From: Pempheris klunzingeri
Lineage: Eukaryota > Chordata > Actinopteri > Acropomatiformes > Pempheridae
DNA length: 64,000 nucleotides
Assembly (NCBI RefSeq): GCF_042242105.1
Contig: NC_092013.1
Location: 5,306,730-5,370,729 of the forward strand
Direction: 5' to 3'
The notes under the pieces are model-generated. The model had not been told where the DNA came from and searched no databases. It saw only the letters and a list, made by a program, of their open reading frames with translations. Made by a program: the position numbers and the translations under genes. Of this stretch, positions 5,732 to 64,000 are shown piece after piece (positions within the stretch are counted from its first letter, which is position 1; each line of letters begins with the position of its first letter).

Positions 5732-7357
5732 GCGATGAGCAGAAAATGTGTGCAAGGCTTATTAGGGACTCTCTAGTCACAGAGGCTGCAGTAAAGAAGA
5801 TGGAACAAGTCAAACACACCTTCAACCAAACGCAGTATTTCTGAACACAGATTGCTGTTTGTATGAATTCCATGCTAGTCTGTACAGTTTCATCTACTTT
5901 ACCCTCCACTGCTCAGACCTGCAGCCTCACAGATCTCAAGCACAGAGGTTTCAGAGGGAGCAGACACACACCAGCCTTTCCCCGTCACTGCCCGTCTGTT
6001 TAAAGTCAAGATCTGCTAAGAGACTGCTGCCAAACCCGGAGGTAGGAACTCTGAGTGGTCATGACATTGTGTATATTTGTATGTAGGATAATTTTTTCAA
6101 CACACCACCTTTTTTTATTAGTAATTCTGTTTTGATCTGTCAACAAAATAACAACATAATAAAAGTTTACCAATTATAAATGGCATTCATTAAAGTCATT
6201 AGAAAACTGTGTGTGATGCAGGCCTGGTCCTGTGTTGCTGACTGCTTTCTTCACTGATTTATCACTCTGGACTTGCAACAGTTCCACACATCATATAATA
6301 TCTCATTACGATCCCTTTATAAGGCCAATGTAACGCACATCCCACCATTCTGTCCTGAATAAGACACACAGAGGCATCACAGTGCTCATATAGTTGCAGC
6401 TGTAATATGTGTTTAATTTTAAATAATCTGATTAAGTGCTGATTATGCAAGAATTTACTGACATTTTACGGAGGGATGACCACAAATATGATGCCAAAGC
6501 TACTGACTCGCAAACAAACAAGCAAAGTGAATGGGGAGTCTGGTCCTCATTCTGCTGCAAATTTAAAATGATTGCTGTTCACTCACAGTCTCATAACAGA
6601 GAGTTTTGAGGAGAATAATGGGGGGAGCTGACAGCTTTATTTAAGACTGTATTGGCTAATGTTAGCCTCTGTTCAACCAGAGCAGTTCAACTAGCCTCAG
6701 GCACAAAATGTAGATTTTCATGATGGGTATCTGTATCCTGTTTTTCTAAGTCCGAAACATACTGAGGTTTTCTGTTCATATAATAAAATAACTGCGTATT
6801 TTTACGCCCCTTGAGCCTCCAAGACAGTACTGACCATCACACACGGATTGAAATGTGCCTAAACAACATAGTTCAGCGTGACAACATGTTGATAGTAGTT
6901 AAAGAATCAATATGGGCACAAGGTGTCGTACTCTCATGGTCCAGAGAGGATGAATCCTATCAAATTTGGAGCTGAAGCTAATATTTTGTAGTTAAGAGTA
7001 AAATACCTTGAGAACTTTTGGATGTATTCGGCCTGTTATGATGTTTGGTAAAGACATCTTTGTCCTCTCATGACGTCCCCTCCTCACAGGAAGCCCAAAT
7101 GTATTTTCAGAAAACTTTTTGTTGTTCTCTCTGGCAGCAGAAGCAGCCTTACTTACTTTCTGGGATTTCACTTTCTGATCTCGTAATGGACACTTAAGCT
7201 GTTGATGCTGCTTGCGATGAAAAATTCTGCCTTTCTCATGTCAATGCACTCCATATCCATAACCAGCTCTTGTTAGGTTTCCTTTCCAGGAAATTTAAAA
7301 TCATCATGGACTGCAAATCTGCCTTTGGCACTTATTCCAAATAAAAATTAGAGTTGC

Positions 7358-7432
7358 AAGTTGCCATAGCAACCTGTACAGGAAGAGTTTACTGAAGTGT
7401 TTACTTAAGAAGAAGGGTTGCTATGGCAACTT
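7358..7432. promoter_or_regulatory. Inverted pair of X-box (RFX-type) motifs
   Basis: The 14-mer GTTGCCATAGCAAC lies at 7360-7373 and its exact reverse complement GTTGCTATGGCAAC at 7417-7430. The match extends to 17 bp on each arm (7358-7374 and 7416-7432). Each arm fits the X-box consensus bound by RFX transcription factors, which is two GTTGCC/RGYAAC half-sites 2 bp apart. The pair lies roughly 140-210 bp before the candidate first coding exon of the lectin gene, so a promoter or enhancer role is plausible. It could also be the ends of a tiny palindromic element. Confidence 0.4.
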
Positions 7433-7570
7433 TGTGTTAAGATTAAAACAGTTGGATAGTGTCTGTTTGTGGAAAAAAAAAAAAGGAACTTAGCTACTTG
7501 AGGAAAAAGACAAAATTCAGACAGAAACCAGAGCAGCAGAGGAGCCATGTTGGACCCAGAGGAGATCACA

Positions 7571-7581
7571 ATGTCCCTGAG
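7571..7581 (+). CDS. Candidate first coding exon of the stalked C-type lectin
   Basis: ATG TCC CTG AG is followed directly by a donor, gtaatg. These 11 bases leave two bases of a codon open. The next plausible acceptor (cctcttag, ending at 8626) supplies one base before an open in-frame stretch running into the lectin. The join would add a short acidic cytoplasmic tail. The phase match is suggestive only. Other first exons further upstream are possible, and the lectin could instead start at its own ATG at 8703. Confidence 0.3.
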
Positions 7582-8169
7582 GTAATGACATCAAGAAAGC
7601 TGCAGGAGCCATGGAGTGTGCTATTCCTCCCAAGCACTACAGGGTGTGTGGTACAGGCCGCAGCTGGCCATGCCAGTAATAAATACCAGGCGATGCTGGT
7701 GGGAAACGGTTTGTGACTGTGCTCAGATGACACTGTAAGGCTGCATTTGTTTTAACTTTGTGTTGGAAACTTATTGGGCGTGACGGATACTCTGGGCACA
7801 AGTAAGAAAATAAAGGCATTATGGTACAAAGTATTGCTTAAGACTGAGTGCACGTCTAAACAATTCGGCTCCAATTAGATTAAAGCCAAGTCAGTCATGG
7901 GGGTTTAGCTAGAGTTGTTTCAGCCTGTTCAGCTGCTTTTAGAGTGTTTGAGCAATCAGTGTTTTTTGGATTTAATAATGTACAGTACAAGGTAGAATGG
8001 GTGGAAATATTGATCAACATGCTATGTGCAGTGGCTTTTGGACCAAGACACTGGTATAATTATCAGAGTCCTCTCAGTTCTGCAGGTGAGCAGTGGTGTC
8101 ACAGGTGGCTGTAGGGGGCAGTAGATTATAAGGAGCTGATGATGATGAAGATATGTTGATTTTGAGATA

Positions 8170-8492
8170 GGGCAGCAGCTAATGTTTTCTTTATCGATTA
8201 ATCTGTGGACAATTTTTCACAATCAATCGAACAGTCGTTTGGTTCATAAAATGTCAGTTTCCAAAGGCCAATGTGACGGCTTCGAACGTCTTGTTTTGTT
8301 ACACACTTTCACTTTACTTTCACAAAGGAGTAAAGAAACCAGAGAATATTCACATTTAAGAAAAAGAAGCCATAGAATTTAGACTTTTTTCTTGAAAAAT
8401 GACTCAAAACGATTAAACGATTATCACAGTAGTTGGTGGTTAATTCAATAGTTGACAACTAAGTGATTAATTGACTAATTGTTGCAGCTCTA
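8170..8492 (+). repeat. Teleost non-autonomous DNA element, copy A
   Basis: This is a 320-bp repeat ending in GCAGCT-type termini: left 'gggcagcagctaatg', right 'attgttgcagctctat' inverted. It contains cgattaatct, 'ataaaatgtcag', 'gagtaaagaaaccagagaat' and 'tgactcaaaacgatta' blocks. Three related copies occur in this window, near 26250, 43520 and 46457. The inverted ends and a loose 8-bp flank similarity (ttttgaga / tttaaaga) point to a hAT-like non-autonomous family. This copy lies just before the lectin acceptor at 8626. Confidence 0.5.
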
Positions 8493-8626
8493 TTTAAAGA
8501 ATATGAAATTACTTTTTCAAAGAATATATTGTATTGTGGAAATATGGTATTCACCTGAAACAGTGCTTTTAGAACCTCTTGTGTAGAGTAACATCTTGAT
8601 CCGTTTGCTTTTCTTTTTCCTCTTAG

Positions 8627-11600
8627 TTCTCAGTCTGGTGAGGAACCAGCAGAAACTAAAGTTCAAGAGGAAATAGGCAGAGAACAAACGCAAACTGACC
8701 ACATGAGAAGATTCCTATCCAGCTGGAAAGATGTTTTGATACTGATATTGGTCGCTTTGGTGGTGGTTTTTGGTGCTGTGACCGGTGTACTAGTTGGTCA
8801 GACAGTCAGTCAGAGCCTGCTCCTGAAGAACGCATTGCAAGAAAAAACTCAGTTGCAGGTGGAGAACAAAAAGCTGAACATGCTTCTAAATTCATCCCTG
8901 AAAAACTGCACCCATGTGGAGGACAACAGACAAGTGAGCCTGCTCTTGAACGACACATTACATGAAAAAACCCAGTTGAGATTGGAGAGCAAAGAGTTCA
9001 GCATGCTTCTAAATTCAACCCTGGAGGACAACAGACAGCTGAGCCCGCTCTTGAACGACACGTTGCAAGAAAAAACTCAGTTGCAAGTGGAGAACAAAGA
9101 CCTGAGCCTGTTTCTCAACTCAACCCTGGAAGACAATAGAAAGTTGAGCCTGCTCTTGAACGACACTTTGCAAGAAAAAACTCAGTTGCAAGTGGAGAAC
9201 AAAGATCTGAGCCTGTTTCTCAACTCAACCCTGGAGGACAACAGACAGCTGAGTCTGCTTTTGAACGACACGCTGCAAGACAAAACTCAGTTGCAAGTGG
9301 AGAACAAAGATCTGAGCCTGTTTCTCAACTCAACCCTGGAGGACAACAGACAGCTGAGCCCGCTCTTGAACGACACGTTGCAAGAAAAAACTCAGTTGCA
9401 AGTGGAGACCAAAGACCTGAGCCTGTTTCTCAACTCAACCCTGGAGGACAACAGACAGCTGAGCCTGCTCTTGAACGACACGCTGCAAGAAAAAACTCAG
9501 TTGCAAGTGGAGAACAAAGATCTGAGCCTGTTTCTCAACTCAACCCTGGAGGACAATAGACAGCTGAGCCTGCTCTTGAACAACACGTTGCAAGAAAAAA
9601 CTCAGTTGCAAGTGGAGAACAAAGACCTGAGCCTGTTTCTCAACTCAACCCTGGAGGACAATAGACAGTTGAGACTGCTCTTGAACGACACACTGCAAGA
9701 AAAAACTCAGTTGCAAGTGGAGAACAAAGACCTGAGCCTGTTCCTCAACTCAACTCTGGAGGACTACAGACAGCATAGATTGCTCTTGAACGACACGCTG
9801 CAAGAAAAAACTCAGTTGCAAGTGGAGAACAAAGACCTGAGCCTGTTTCTCAACTCAACCCTGGAGGACAACAGACAGCTGAGCCTGCTCTTGAACGACA
9901 CGTTGCAAGAAAAAACTCAGTTGCAAGTGGAGAACAAAGATCTGAGTGTGTTTCTCAACTCAACCCTGGAGGACAATAGACAGCTGAGCCTGCTCTTGAA
10001 CGACACGTTGCAAGAAAAAACTCAGTTGCAAGTGGAGAACAAAGACCTGAGCCTGTTCCTCAACTCAACCCTGGAGGACAATAGACAGCTGAGCCTGCTC
10101 TTGAACGACACGTTGCAAGAAAAAACTCAGTTGCAAGTGGAGAACAAAGATCTGAGTGTGTTTCTCAACTCAACCCTGGAGGACAATAGACAGCTGAGCC
10201 TGCTCTTGAACGACACGTTGCAAGAAAAAACTCAGTTGCAAGTGGAGAACAAAGACCTGAGCCTGTTTCTCAACTCAACCCTGGAGGACTACAGACAGCA
10301 TAGATTGCTCTTGAACGACACGCTGCAAGAAAAAACTCAGTTGCAAGTGGAGAACAAAGACCTGAGCCTGTTTCTCAACTCAACCCTGGAGGACAACAGA
10401 CAGCTGAGCCTGCTCTTGAACGACACGCTGCAAGAAAAAACTCAGTTGCAAGTGGAGAACAAAGACCTGAGCCTGTTTCTCAACTCAACCCTGGAGGACA
10501 ACAGACAGCTGAGCCTGCTCTTGAACGACACGTTGCAAGAAAAAACTCAGTTGCAAGTGGAGAACAAAGACCTGAGCCTGTTTCTCAACTCAACTCTGGA
10601 GGACAACAGACAGCTGAGCCTGCTCTTGAACGACACGTTGCAAGAAAAAACTCAGTTGCAAGTGGAGAACAAAGATCTGAGCCTGTTTCTCAACTCAACC
10701 CTGGAGGACAACAGACAGCTGAGCCTGCTCTTGAACGACACGTTGCAAGAAAAAACTCAGTTGCAAGTGGAGAACAAAGACCTGAGCCTGTTTCTCAACT
10801 CAACCCTGGAGGACTACAGACAGCATAGATTGCTCTTGAACGACACGTTGCAAGAAAAAACTCAGTTGCAAGTGGAGAATAAAGATCTGAGCCTGTTTCT
10901 CAACTCAACCCTAGAGGACAACAGACAGCTGAGCCTGCTCTTGAACGACACGTTGCAAGAAAAGACCCAGTTGCAAGTGGAGAACAAAGAGTTCAGCATG
11001 CTTCTAAATTCAACCCTGGAGGACTGTGCCCTTGTGGAGGAGGACAACAGACAGCTGAGACTGCTTCTGAACGAATCGTTGCGCATCATTGACCTGGTGT
11101 CTGCAGAGCGCAAACAGTTGCAGTTGATGTTAAACAGTGAGCATCAATACTCCATGCAGCTGGAAAGAGACAATCAACACCAGCGTTCAATCCTGTTCTC
11201 CAACAGACTGTCCTTCCTCTGGAGATTGTGCAACCAGACCACACTGCAGTGTTTACGCTGCCTGCCCGGCTGGACCGAGCACGCCTCACGCTGCTTCTTC
11301 CTGTCCCGAGAGCAAAAGAAGTGGGAGGATGCTCGCAGGGAGTGTCTCGATCATGGGGGGGACTTAGCTATTGTTCTGGATGCTAAAGACCAGGCGTTCC
11401 TGACCAACATGACTTTTCAATATGTACAGCGGCACCCTGAAGAAAACTTCCATTCAGCGTGGATCGGCCTGCAGGATATGGTCAAGGAGAATGTCCACTT
11501 ATGGATCACAGGGAAGAGAATCACTTATAAAGTCAGATACTGGAAGAGCCTGGAGCCAAACAATGCCATGGCCTCCTGGGACACGGACAGGGCAGGGCAG

Positions 11601-11726
11601 GACTGTGTAGCCATTGTCCCGCCAAAAGGCATCGGACAGAAGGGCTGGTTGAACTCCTGGGATGACATTGTTTGTGGTGGCAAACGGCACTACCTGTGTG
11701 AGACCACAGCTCTCAGTTTGTCCTGA
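8627..11726 (+). CDS. C-type lectin with 20-repeat N-glycosylated stalk (type II membrane protein)
   Basis: From the ATG at 8703 the open frame encodes 1007 residues: a short basic N-terminus, one membrane helix (about 11-32), a stalk of exactly 20 repeats of 35 residues (about 74-773), a short coiled segment, and a C-type lectin domain (about 850-1003). The lectin domain has the long-form cysteine set (C853, CFFLS, final LCETT), WIGL, an EPN mannose-type calcium motif at 951-953 and WDD at 986-988 where WND is usual. The layout resembles CD209 or asialoglycoprotein-type receptors, normally 250-400 residues, so this one is unusually long. The frame is open upstream to a good acceptor (polypyrimidine then tcttag at 8621-8626). 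It would encode an acidic tail beginning SQSGEEPAETK, so the true start is probably in an upstream exon. The whole lectin domain is intron-free. The role, pathogen or glycan binding on leucocytes or epithelium, is inferred from the family. Confidence 0.85.
8922..11021 (+). repeat. Tandem array, 20 x 105 bp, coding for the lectin stalk
   Basis: Twenty units of exactly 105 bp run head to tail with no length change (2100 bp). The consensus unit begins DNRQLS and contains LLLNDTLQEKTQ, LQVENKDLS and LFLNSTLE. Each unit carries two N-glycosylation sequons (NDT, or NNT in unit 7, and NST), giving 40 in the array. Thirty-five residues equal five heptads, with leucines spaced for a continuous coiled coil. 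Units 9, 14 and 19 share the variant DYRQHR and start at 9762, 10287 and 10812, exactly 525 bp (five units) apart. That indicates block duplication. Edge units 1 and 20 share the divergent EFSMLLNST form. Confidence 0.97.
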
Positions 11727-24445: not shown

Positions 24446-29618
<5,173 letters not shown>

Positions 29619-59434: not shown

Positions 59435-61393
59435 TGGGAGCTGTTACAGATGGTAAGTAGCATTTTAATCCATTCATTTCGGCTCTCTGGTGAAAACCAC
59501 GCGTGGAAATGTGTGCCGAAGCTCTTAAAGTATCCTCACATTGCCAGCCACGTGGTTAAAACGAGCCAATTTGACACGTATAGGCAGTTTGATCTCAAAA
59601 CAGCTAATATACAGCAGCCATGCTAGCTAGCGAACAGCTAGCTCGGCCGCTCCTCGGATGTACCTGCTGTATCCGAGACGCTGAATGATTCTTGCTCTTT
59701 CCTCCAAATCTAGATGAAGTTATTCGGAAACGCCTTCTTATCGACGGGGACGGAGCTGGTGATGACCGCCGCATCAACGTGCTGCTGAAGAGTTTCACCA
59801 AGTGGTGCAACTCGCCCGCGACCCCGGAGGAAGGGTGAGGGAGCTCTTCGTTGCAGATCCCCCACAGAGCCCTGGACTTTGTCACCGAGCATTTCTATGA
59901 AAGTGTTATGGAGAACTTGCTTTGGGTCGTAAATCGTCTTGTAATGCTTCTCAGGTTCACTCAGTATCAGAGGATGCTGAGCACGCTGGCCCAGTGTGAA
60001 TTCTCCATGGGGAAGACGTTGATGGTTTATGACATGAATCTTCGGGAAATGGAGAATTATGAGAAAATCTACTCAAACATAGGTAGGAGATGTGGACTTT
60101 CTGACACTGGCCGTGCATGTTCATAATCAAGTATGCACACTAGTTGTTTTTGTGTTCTTTTATTTGCCAGTAATACTCCTCGTTCTTGCAGTTCATGCTG
60201 TCATACTAGAACAGGGCCACAAAGTATGTTGTTGTGCTACAAAGAATCACCACTATTGTTCACATTGCAGAGCAAAACATCACCTCTGCGCATGAGAAGA
60301 TAACAGAGTGCAAAAAAGAAATTCAGAGAGCGAAGAGGATACGGAAAAATCGCCAGGGTAAGAATATTTCCTCCAGATTGGTGAGATGTATTACTTTTTA
60401 TGCTGTTTTTATAGACTGAGGAAGACTAAAGTTGTTCTAGGTGTAGTACCAATATTTTTATTTGTAAAACCAACAGATTAAACAGTTTAAATGGTGCTGT
60501 CAATATGCAGATATTTAATTTGTACCCTTTTTTATTCTTCTGACTTCTCCAATGTGATTATTTGCGCTTTCTTTTTCCTTTTCATTATAAGTTTCAATTG
60601 ATTAACTTTGGATTTTGAACTGTTATTTAGGACCCAAACCTGGGATTTGAGGACTTGCGAATGGCATTTTTCACTACTGTCTAATGTTTTATTAACTACA
60701 CATTTAATTTAATCAAAGAACCTTTCATCAGAAGAATCAGTACTGAAAATAATCTTGAATCTAAACATTTCGGTTCGAATGACTGCTTGTCTCACACGTT
60801 CACATTTTGTCTTTCCCTCCAGAGTACGATGCTTTAGCTAAGGTTATCCAGCAACACCCAGACCGACATGAAACACTAAAGTAAGTCGGTCTCTCATTCG
60901 TTTCTTCCCAATATGAAGTTTTGTGGTTTATGTGCTTCATTGCGGTTTAATCACTTACAGGCAGTTGGAGGGGCTTGACAAAGAACTCCAGCAACTGTCT
61001 CACATCAAGGAGAATGTAGATGCAAAGGTAAAGCTAATTACATCAGTTATCTCTTCTAACCTAACCTGTAATGTCCTCAGTCACTGGTAATATCTTATTT
61101 GTTAAATCTGTCCCTCGCAGTTGGAGTTAAGGAAGAAGCAGTTCCACGTGCTCCTCAGTACCATACAGGAACTACAGCAGACACTGGAGAGTGAGTAACG
61201 AAGGACATTTTTGAGCGCTTTTGTTTGCACTCTTTGATGACCCTCCGTCATGGTCTTTATTCCGTTACATACGTAAACATAAGAAAAAGCAGAGGTACCT
61301 ACGCAGTGCTAATTCCTTTCATCCCCCCTAGATGACGAGAAATCAGACAATGACGACAACAGTCAGGAGAGCCCGGTGGAGAATGGCGAATGA
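59435..61393 (+). CDS. thoc7: THO complex subunit 7
   Basis: Eight exons (59435-59453, 59714-59834, 59955-60082, 60271-60357, 60823-60880, 60961-61027, 61121-61190, 61332-61393) sum to 612 bp, or 203 residues. Human THOC7 has about 204. The product is a coiled-coil subunit of the THO/TREX complex in the nucleus, which couples transcription to mRNA export. The N-terminus MGAVTDDEVIRKRLLIDGDG and the core NLREMENYEKIY and RIRKNRQEYDALAK match the vertebrate protein as I recall it. The C-terminus is acidic and diverged (SDNDDNSQESPVENGE). The very short first exon (six codons plus one base) ends at a perfect gtaagt donor. It is head to head with atxn7 and tail to tail with mx. Confidence 0.98.
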
Positions 61394-62398: not shown

Positions 62399-64000
62399 CT
62401 AAAACTCCACCAGGTATGTGCGGGCCTTCATGAGGCGTTTGAGGCGACTCTGCAAAGCAGCCCTCTTGCTGCCAATGTCAAGATCCTCCCTCAGCAAGAA
62501 CTCTGAATTCTCTTTGTCCTGCATCACCTGCAGCATCTCCCTCTGCAGTTGGGCGGCAAACTCCTGCAACATCTGGTAGCGGATCACCAGCGGGATCTGG
62601 TCAGTCAGACGCTGGCTGGCAATCTGAAGGAGGAAAGAAAACGTCAAGTTTGAGAGACGAGAGTCGCTGTTCATTGCCTCTGTTCACAAATCATCCGTTT
62701 AAATTAAAACTTACTTTGTAATATGATTTAAGGTGGAGCGTCAGCTCCTGAAGTGTTGCATGATTATCCATTCTGTACACAAAACCAAGTATTTGGGGAT
62801 GTTGTATACGCCTGTCTTCCTCCTCCTCCTCCCTCTTTCTCTCACTCAAACTGTTGCTGTAGGTCCTGTCCTGAGCGTAAACAAGCAGCTCCATCTTGAA
62901 CTGAGTTCTCAGCGTGGATTCAGCAGTGATCTCTTTTTGTTGCTTAATGGATTCGATCTTTCCCTGGAAAATAAGATTCTGGTCAGTGTGGACACTGCAG
63001 AAAAATTATACATATTAAATGTTAAGAGCCAAAAAATACTGATAACGATTATCAAATCATCAGTATGTCACTATCAAACTCTTAGAAGATGGCTACCTTG
63101 GCAGTTTTCATGAGGTTCGGAAATCCAATGAAGCTACACTGAGCCAACTGGATGAACACCTTCCTAACAGCATCTGGAGGAAACGGAAATACAACAAGAT
63201 ACAGAGGCTTTGTTTCCACTTCACTGGTGTTTGTATGATAATACAGGAAAGTGTGATCAGTACAGACACCTTAAACCTGCCATATATCCAATCATATACC
63301 TCCTATGTCCTTGAGTCTCTTCACAGCTGGTTCTTCCAGCAGTTTGATCTGCTCCTTGACCATCACCTCAAAGGTCTTGTAGTTGATGAAGCCAGGCAGT
63401 TCCCTCCCACGGTACATCTCTTCATACTTCTCCACCTCTCTCTCAATCCTCTCGTTAACTGCAACACACAAATATATTTCAGAGTCCTGCTGTTTGACAG
63501 CTGTAGACCAGATCCAAATGATCCACTCACAGTTTTGTCCTGAGTGGTCCAGGTGGGCATTCCACTTCCCAAACTCTTTTCTGAGGGTAGAAAAGATGTT
63601 GAGCTTCTCTCCACACTTGAGTTCCTCTCCTGTAGTCAGACTGATGGCATCCTGAATGAATGCTGTCACTTTCTGCAGCACACACATCACAGCACAAACA
63701 AATATTTAAGATTCATACACGTCTTTATAGGCGGGTAAATATTGTGTCCTGTGGGGGAGCTCACGTCAATGAGGAATAGGAGTCTCTCAGCTGCCTCAGA
63801 TGGGGGTCCATCGCCATATCTGTCCAGCTCCGCATGAGTCTGTGCTAGTTTCTCCTCTATCTGTTCTTCCAGTCGAGGCAGAGACCTCTGCAGATCACAC
63901 AAGAGTCAAAACTTTAACATCAGAGGCAAATATTCATATTTTATACAGTAAATCATTGAGATGAATTAATAAAAAACATTTACCTCGATGTGATGCACCA
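62399..64000 (-). CDS. mx: Interferon-induced GTP-binding protein Mx, 3' part
   Basis: Seven exons on the minus strand are visible: 63984 to beyond the window edge, 63765-63887, 63531-63672, 63300-63458, 63097-63173, 62715-62963, 62399-62623. They join in phase to the last 329 residues and stop. Mx proteins are dynamin-like GTPases that assemble on viral nucleocapsids, and they are switched on by type I interferon. The part seen is the stalk and C-terminal effector region: LVHHIERSLPRLEEQIEEKL, LTTGEELKCGEKLN, the conserved YRGRELPGFINYKTFE, the charged loop SERKREEEEEDRR, and the final helical segment ending RTYLVEF. The GTPase domain and promoter lie outside the window. The frame is intact. 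Fish often have several mx copies and this one is not assigned to a subgroup. Confidence 0.95.

Follow-up and report, generated by a model that had tools for sequence, protein, structure and literature searches.

Several membrane proteins offer points of comparison for the gene considered here. CLEC4F, the Kupffer cell receptor, is a type II lectin whose extended heptad neck is encoded by one exon and forms a trimeric coiled coil (PMC6422238). DC-SIGN forms tetramers, and its neck has seven full repeats of 23 residues, in each of which a part that contains proline is non-helical (PMC5275740), while in DC-SIGNR the neck repeat is known as a polymorphic variable number tandem repeat (VNTR; PMC2797785). 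On cilia, the tethered airway mucins, with lengths of 190-1500 nm, form a membrane-bound brush of glycans (PMC6195635). We compare with these systems a lectin gene found in a 64,000-nucleotide stretch of the genome of the fish Pempheris klunzingeri (NC_092013.1, positions 5,306,730 to 5,370,729, forward strand), called the window below. The predicted protein has a neck of 20 repeated 35-residue units, coded in register and constrained at the protein level, and a complete lectin domain. As a whole, we lean with reasonable confidence towards an intact fish type II membrane C-type lectin gene with a long, glycan-striped, RFX-driven stalk of several chains.

The neck array, the transmembrane helix and the lectin domain lie in a single 3.1-kb open frame (8592-11726), and a two-exon model, in which exon 1 joins exon 2 in frame, gives a predicted protein of 1044 residues. 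The features are, in positions of the window:

7360 to 7373, plus strand: X-box 1, exact GTTGCCATAGCAAC, ending 174 bp upstream of the ATG
7417 to 7430, minus strand: X-box 2, exact GTTGCCATAGCAAC, 57 bp from the first and ending 117 bp upstream of the ATG
7547 to 7581, plus strand: predicted exon 1, with the ATG and first codons; GT donor at 7582 and in-frame join to exon 2, by sequence reading
8627 to 11726, plus strand: predicted exon 2, with the rest of the cytoplasmic tail, transmembrane helix, neck, lectin domain and stop; AG acceptor, in-frame join
8730 to 8798, plus strand: transmembrane helix, type II, about residues 47-69; hydropathy maximum 3.08 over 19 residues, at residues 48 and 50
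8817 to 8921, plus strand: diverged unit 0, with Cys106 and two N-glycosylation sequons
8922 to 11021, plus strand: 20-unit array, 105 bp (35 residues) each, 40 sequons, residues 111-810
11022 to 11255, plus strand: unit-like segment with Cys812, then linker to the lectin domain
11256 to 11705, plus strand: C-type lectin domain, single exon

Hydropathy and the gene model point to a type II layout, with a short cytoplasmic tail (about 46 residues), one transmembrane helix and a C-terminal carbohydrate-recognition domain (CRD). An earlier interpretation of the same letters, the sequence-only reading, had a long repeat stalk holding a lectin head far from the membrane, and hydropathy and Pfam support one protein with a transmembrane anchor, a very long repeat neck and a C-terminal lectin domain. 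Separately, a stretch of the intron (8258-8468, about 220 bp) is 72% alike to 26343-26562 and is probably a dispersed repeat.

Tandem Repeats Finder places the array at 8917-11024, with a period of 105, 20.1 copies, 0% indels and a score of 3628. When cut at 8922, all 20 units translate in one frame as 35 residues, and 18 of them agree with the consensus at no fewer than 97 of the 105 bases, the exceptions being unit 1 (88) and unit 20 (96). The array contains 40 of the 45 sequons in the whole protein (19 NDT, one NNT and 20 NST), to be compared with a mean of 12.7 and a maximum of 28 in 5000 shuffles of its residues. Asn and Thr of both sites are invariant in 20 of 20 units, and the middle residue differs once, in the NNT. 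The description from which this analysis started, 20 units of 105 bp with no indel, five heptads each and two sequons per unit (NDT or NNT, and NST), thus agrees with the unit cutting and the sequon count, and also with a heptad register that is best over the whole array. Two details depart from that description: the array has unit-like flanks, described below, and a Leu-to-Pro change is present in units 2 and 5, so that proline occurs in 2 of the 20. A Pfam match of the array to DUF1694 (30.9 bits against a cut-off of 25, no single stretch passing) was judged to reflect low complexity or a shared fold.

The differences between units are those of a coding sequence. For the inner units 2-19 the pN/pS ratio is 0.16, and 16 of the 25 distinct variants are synonymous, against 22% expected from the site counts (p 6e-6); the excess persists at p 0.005 when a transition bias of 8 is allowed. 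Such constraint argues that the array is translated. Similarity between units five apart exceeds that in shuffled orders (p 0.009), and units 9, 14 and 19 all carry a DYRQHR variant, a pattern that duplication of five-unit blocks would give. The edge units 1 and 20 have the variant EFSMLLNSTLE in common, which we take to be older.

The flanks suggest where the unit came from. Upstream lies a diverged 41-residue unit with a cysteine (length counted by eye), and downstream a unit-like segment, also with a cysteine. Aligned by eye with the array units, unit 0 holds six extra residues (NCTHVE) and the segment after unit 20 seven (DCALVEE), in each case including the cysteine; the same seven-residue layout (TCNLVEE) is seen, again by eye, in the single readable unit of a broken relative on the assembly sequence C1. 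We infer from these alignments an ancestral unit of 42 residues, or six heptads, which may have lost one heptad with its cysteine and then spread. The cysteines bracketing the array (residues 106 and 812) could lock chains together.

The assembly was searched with the neck and with the lectin domain. In the neck search, where only the best candidates are scored, all 12 matches to the neck query at E up to 0.001 fall within this gene, five of them on the minus strand; among the scored candidates there was no match outside it and no second copy or haplotig, the relic unit on C1 lying below the threshold. The lectin domain, on the other hand, has at least four broken relatives, one on C1 (L009), two on C2, where the window itself lies (L010, L011), and one on C14 (L012), each of them truncated, stop-broken or both. 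Since L009 and L011 have kept pieces of intron or promoter, they are genomic duplicates and not retrocopies. We regard the gene as belonging to a birth-and-death family, with one intact member found.

It is against this background that the copy number has to be judged. A possible, though less probable, account is that the number of units has no function, i.e. that a coding minisatellite drifts in length on an ordinary lectin receptor, as in the DC-SIGNR neck VNTR (PMC2797785). The near-identity of the units and the lag-five similarity suggest recent turnover, and the relic L009 has a single readable unit, both of which this account would explain. The constraint and the invariant sequon residues indicate that the unit matters, but not that its number does.

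For the stalk, a COILS-type score was used. One register is best throughout the array (score 1.22, against 0.99 for the next), with N/L/K/N/L at position a and L/T/L/L/T at position d of the consensus unit and both sequon Asn at position b. The fraction of array residues with P > 0.5 is 81% at a window of 28 residues, 50% at 21 and 34% at 14, and with the 28-residue window 16 of 500 shuffles reach the best-register score of the unit. A d-position Leu is replaced by His in units 9, 14 and 19. AlphaFold2 (AF2) without relatives gives helix for units 17-20, with block pLDDT (its per-residue confidence) of 62-76 in units 17-19; pLDDT falls to 45 near residues 121-130, and there is a gap in the helix at residues 122-128. 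As a full helix, the array would span a computed 104 nm. These predictions make a helical stalk likely, probably of several chains and perhaps hinged near the membrane. If the neck forms a coiled coil, the single lectin head proposed before becomes improbable, because two to four chains would then cluster their heads.

We now turn to the promoter. The 14-mer GTTGCCATAGCAAC, which we take to be an RFX X-box, occurs twice without mismatch 117-187 bp upstream of the ATG, presumably close to the transcription start. With up to two mismatches, the window gives six rows (three places, both strands), against 1.14 expected. In the 646 Mb genome the exact 14-mer is found at 122 places, while about 4 are expected from base composition at an assumed GC content of 42%, and the reversed control gives 0. 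Among the 100 listed of these 122 places, no other two lie within 1 kb of each other, the next-closest pair being 8.6 kb apart; were the 122 sites random, 0.002 pairs within 100 bp would be expected. The 164,915 bases of the window and the fetched stretches contain five matches with at most one mismatch, two here and one each in L009, L011 and L035. In L009 the X-box is exact and in L011 there are two sites (2 and 1 mismatches), in both cases upstream of the intron and gene remains; L010 and L012 show no X-box within one mismatch. A forkhead-like TGTTTAC sits between the two X-boxes, but carries little weight because the word is common in the window (21 against 12.3 expected).

The paired motif predicts RFX control and suggests that RFX factors drive the gene. 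In multiciliated-cell genes, no motif is more enriched than Rfx in the 100 bases around the start, and the enrichment is similar in the zebrafish orthologues (PMC5245798). RFX proteins are also active in testis, brain and immune cells (PMC5838959), and ciliated-cell expression is thus one guess among several.

One such alternative is a DC-SIGN-like immune receptor on macrophages or dendritic cells under RFX5-type control, with no link to cilia, which we consider possible but would not expect. RFX5 is indeed tied to immune tissue (PMC5838959), and the modelled head is closest to those of DC-SIGNR and Mincle. For this model, AF2 used an aligned set of seven head sequences, six of which come from other places in this genome, the single-sequence AF2 model of the head being unusable; the best structural matches are DC-SIGNR, with Mincle and others within 1 Z. 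Birth and death of copies, as seen in the at least four broken relatives, is also usual for immune lectins. However, both X-boxes are near-palindromic motifs with two half-sites, as fits RFX proteins that dimerise, and no CCAAT, ATTGG or TATAA occurs on the plus strand of 7301-7560. RFX5 and RFX7, for their part, possess only the DNA-binding domain (PMC5838959). Nor does the cytoplasmic tail contain a tyrosine.

The lectin domain matches Pfam PF00059 over the full profile (E 2.4e-12). EPN is present (EPNN at the aligned place), and the last Asp and the six domain cysteines are kept. In place of WND, on the other hand, stands WDD, and Gln replaces the Glu before DC in a loop that has additional residues, where the head of locus L013 has WND and Glu; these positions are taken as part of the Ca2+ site. 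The earlier description of the head as mannose-type is therefore uncertain, being in line with the EPN but not with these two changes. With WDD or WDN also in place of WND in the relics L009, L011 and L012, the head might have lost sugar binding, leaving mainly a glycan-coated spacer or a protein binder; the retained EPN, Asp and cysteines and the complete profile make this unlikely. L013 itself (6349-6714, minus strand) is a complete single-exon C-type lectin domain with EPN and WND, so that a single-exon lectin domain is not unique in this genome. An NCBIfam match of the head to PCC (32.9 bits against a cut-off of 1861) was put down to low complexity or a shared fold. Finally, it is very improbable that the array owes its length to an assembly artefact or that the gene is unexpressed, as the units are not identical, the scored candidates include no second copy or haplotig, and an unexpressed gene would lose the coding constraint.

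In the favoured reading of a glycan-striped, multi-chain lectin stalk, the array would have grown by unequal exchange of whole five-heptad units, and each change in copy number would keep helix register and glycan phase. Chains associating via the neck would form a stalk of about 100-120 nm, on which all 40 sequon Asn, at one outward heptad position, would give N-glycan stripes that stiffen and space it. Held above the glycocalyx by this stalk, clustered DC-SIGN-like heads would capture glycosylated particles. With RFX-driven expression, ciliated epithelium or germ cells would be the likeliest sites, and macrophages or other immune cells the next. A more specific version, in which the protein is a lectin of motile ciliated cells or sperm whose 100-nm N-glycan brush holds the heads above the cilia or flagellum, with a reach tuned by unit number, is rather unlikely.

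It is important to point out what weighs against the favoured reading. The coil score is moderate (p 0.07 against shuffles for the full unit), the Fourier test of binary hydrophobicity for a 3.5-residue period is negative (p 0.49), which counts against a strong coil, Lys and Asn occupy a positions and Thr d positions, and a kink in the helix would be expected at the prolines of units 2 and 5. Of the continuous coiled rod of roughly 700 residues proposed earlier, the very long repeat neck is thus retained, while the continuous coil is weaker than was stated. The Ca2+ site of the head is unlike that of L013, and inspection of the tail by eye recognised no endocytosis or signalling motif. The step to ciliated cells is based on promoter motifs; nine other X-box places on C1 outside the lectin family were viewed as 3-kb loci and eight of them (not L045) scanned with Pfam, one segment each, and the two that gave a domain (SPRY and spondin TSP1) are not recognisably ciliary, an outcome that speaks neither for nor against ciliated cells.

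In the neighbourhood, exons match RPN7, THOC7 and the dynamin middle domain, presumably from PSMD6-like, THOC7 and Mx-like genes, and a sugar transporter match remains below the Pfam cut-off. The dynamin middle domain exons (62691-63705, minus strand) lie near the THOC7 exon (59839-60126). No relative was found in viral contigs with the head and neck queries or in prokaryote contigs with the head query, and a PDB sequence search with the transmembrane part and the first units gave no match. Among the matches listed from the open literature, we recognised no fish lectin or lectin neck of this kind.

If expressed as read, the neck would to our knowledge be among the longest on a membrane lectin. 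It would be an N-glycosylated helical brush of natural origin, lengthened or shortened in steps that keep the register, and would offer a way to test how far a receptor can reach through the glycocalyx at a given stalk length and glycan density. As to the site of expression, the two X-boxes make a sharp prediction.

How, then, does the gene compare with the known systems? It shares with CLEC4F the predicted type II layout and a long heptad neck encoded by one exon. The CRD of CLEC4F, however, is on three further exons and binds galactose, whereas here CRD, neck and transmembrane helix are all in one open exon. The galactose-type CRD motif is QPD, while this head has EPN, and 20 units make up its neck in a homogeneous array. 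With DC-SIGN and DC-SIGNR (CD209, CD209L) the gene has in common a tandem-repeat neck, and the modelled head finds its best structural match there, though level with others; instead of 23-residue repeats with a proline in each, its 20 units are 35 residues long, each with two sequons, and only two contain proline. Because defining features of both are absent, we do not file the gene as CD209 or CLEC4F. The sequence-only reading saw an unusual receptor design, which holds for unit length, unit number and exon layout; since CLEC4F already has a long trimeric coiled-coil neck, the design is better described as an extreme of a known kind. The likeness to the airway mucins MUC4, MUC16 and MUC20, namely to work like a membrane-tethered glycan brush, is an analogy only. 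These are O-linked and have no lectin head, whereas the present gene predicts an N-glycosylated helix with a lectin head, and in the version on cilia or sperm a helix array would take the place of mucin domains in the brush.
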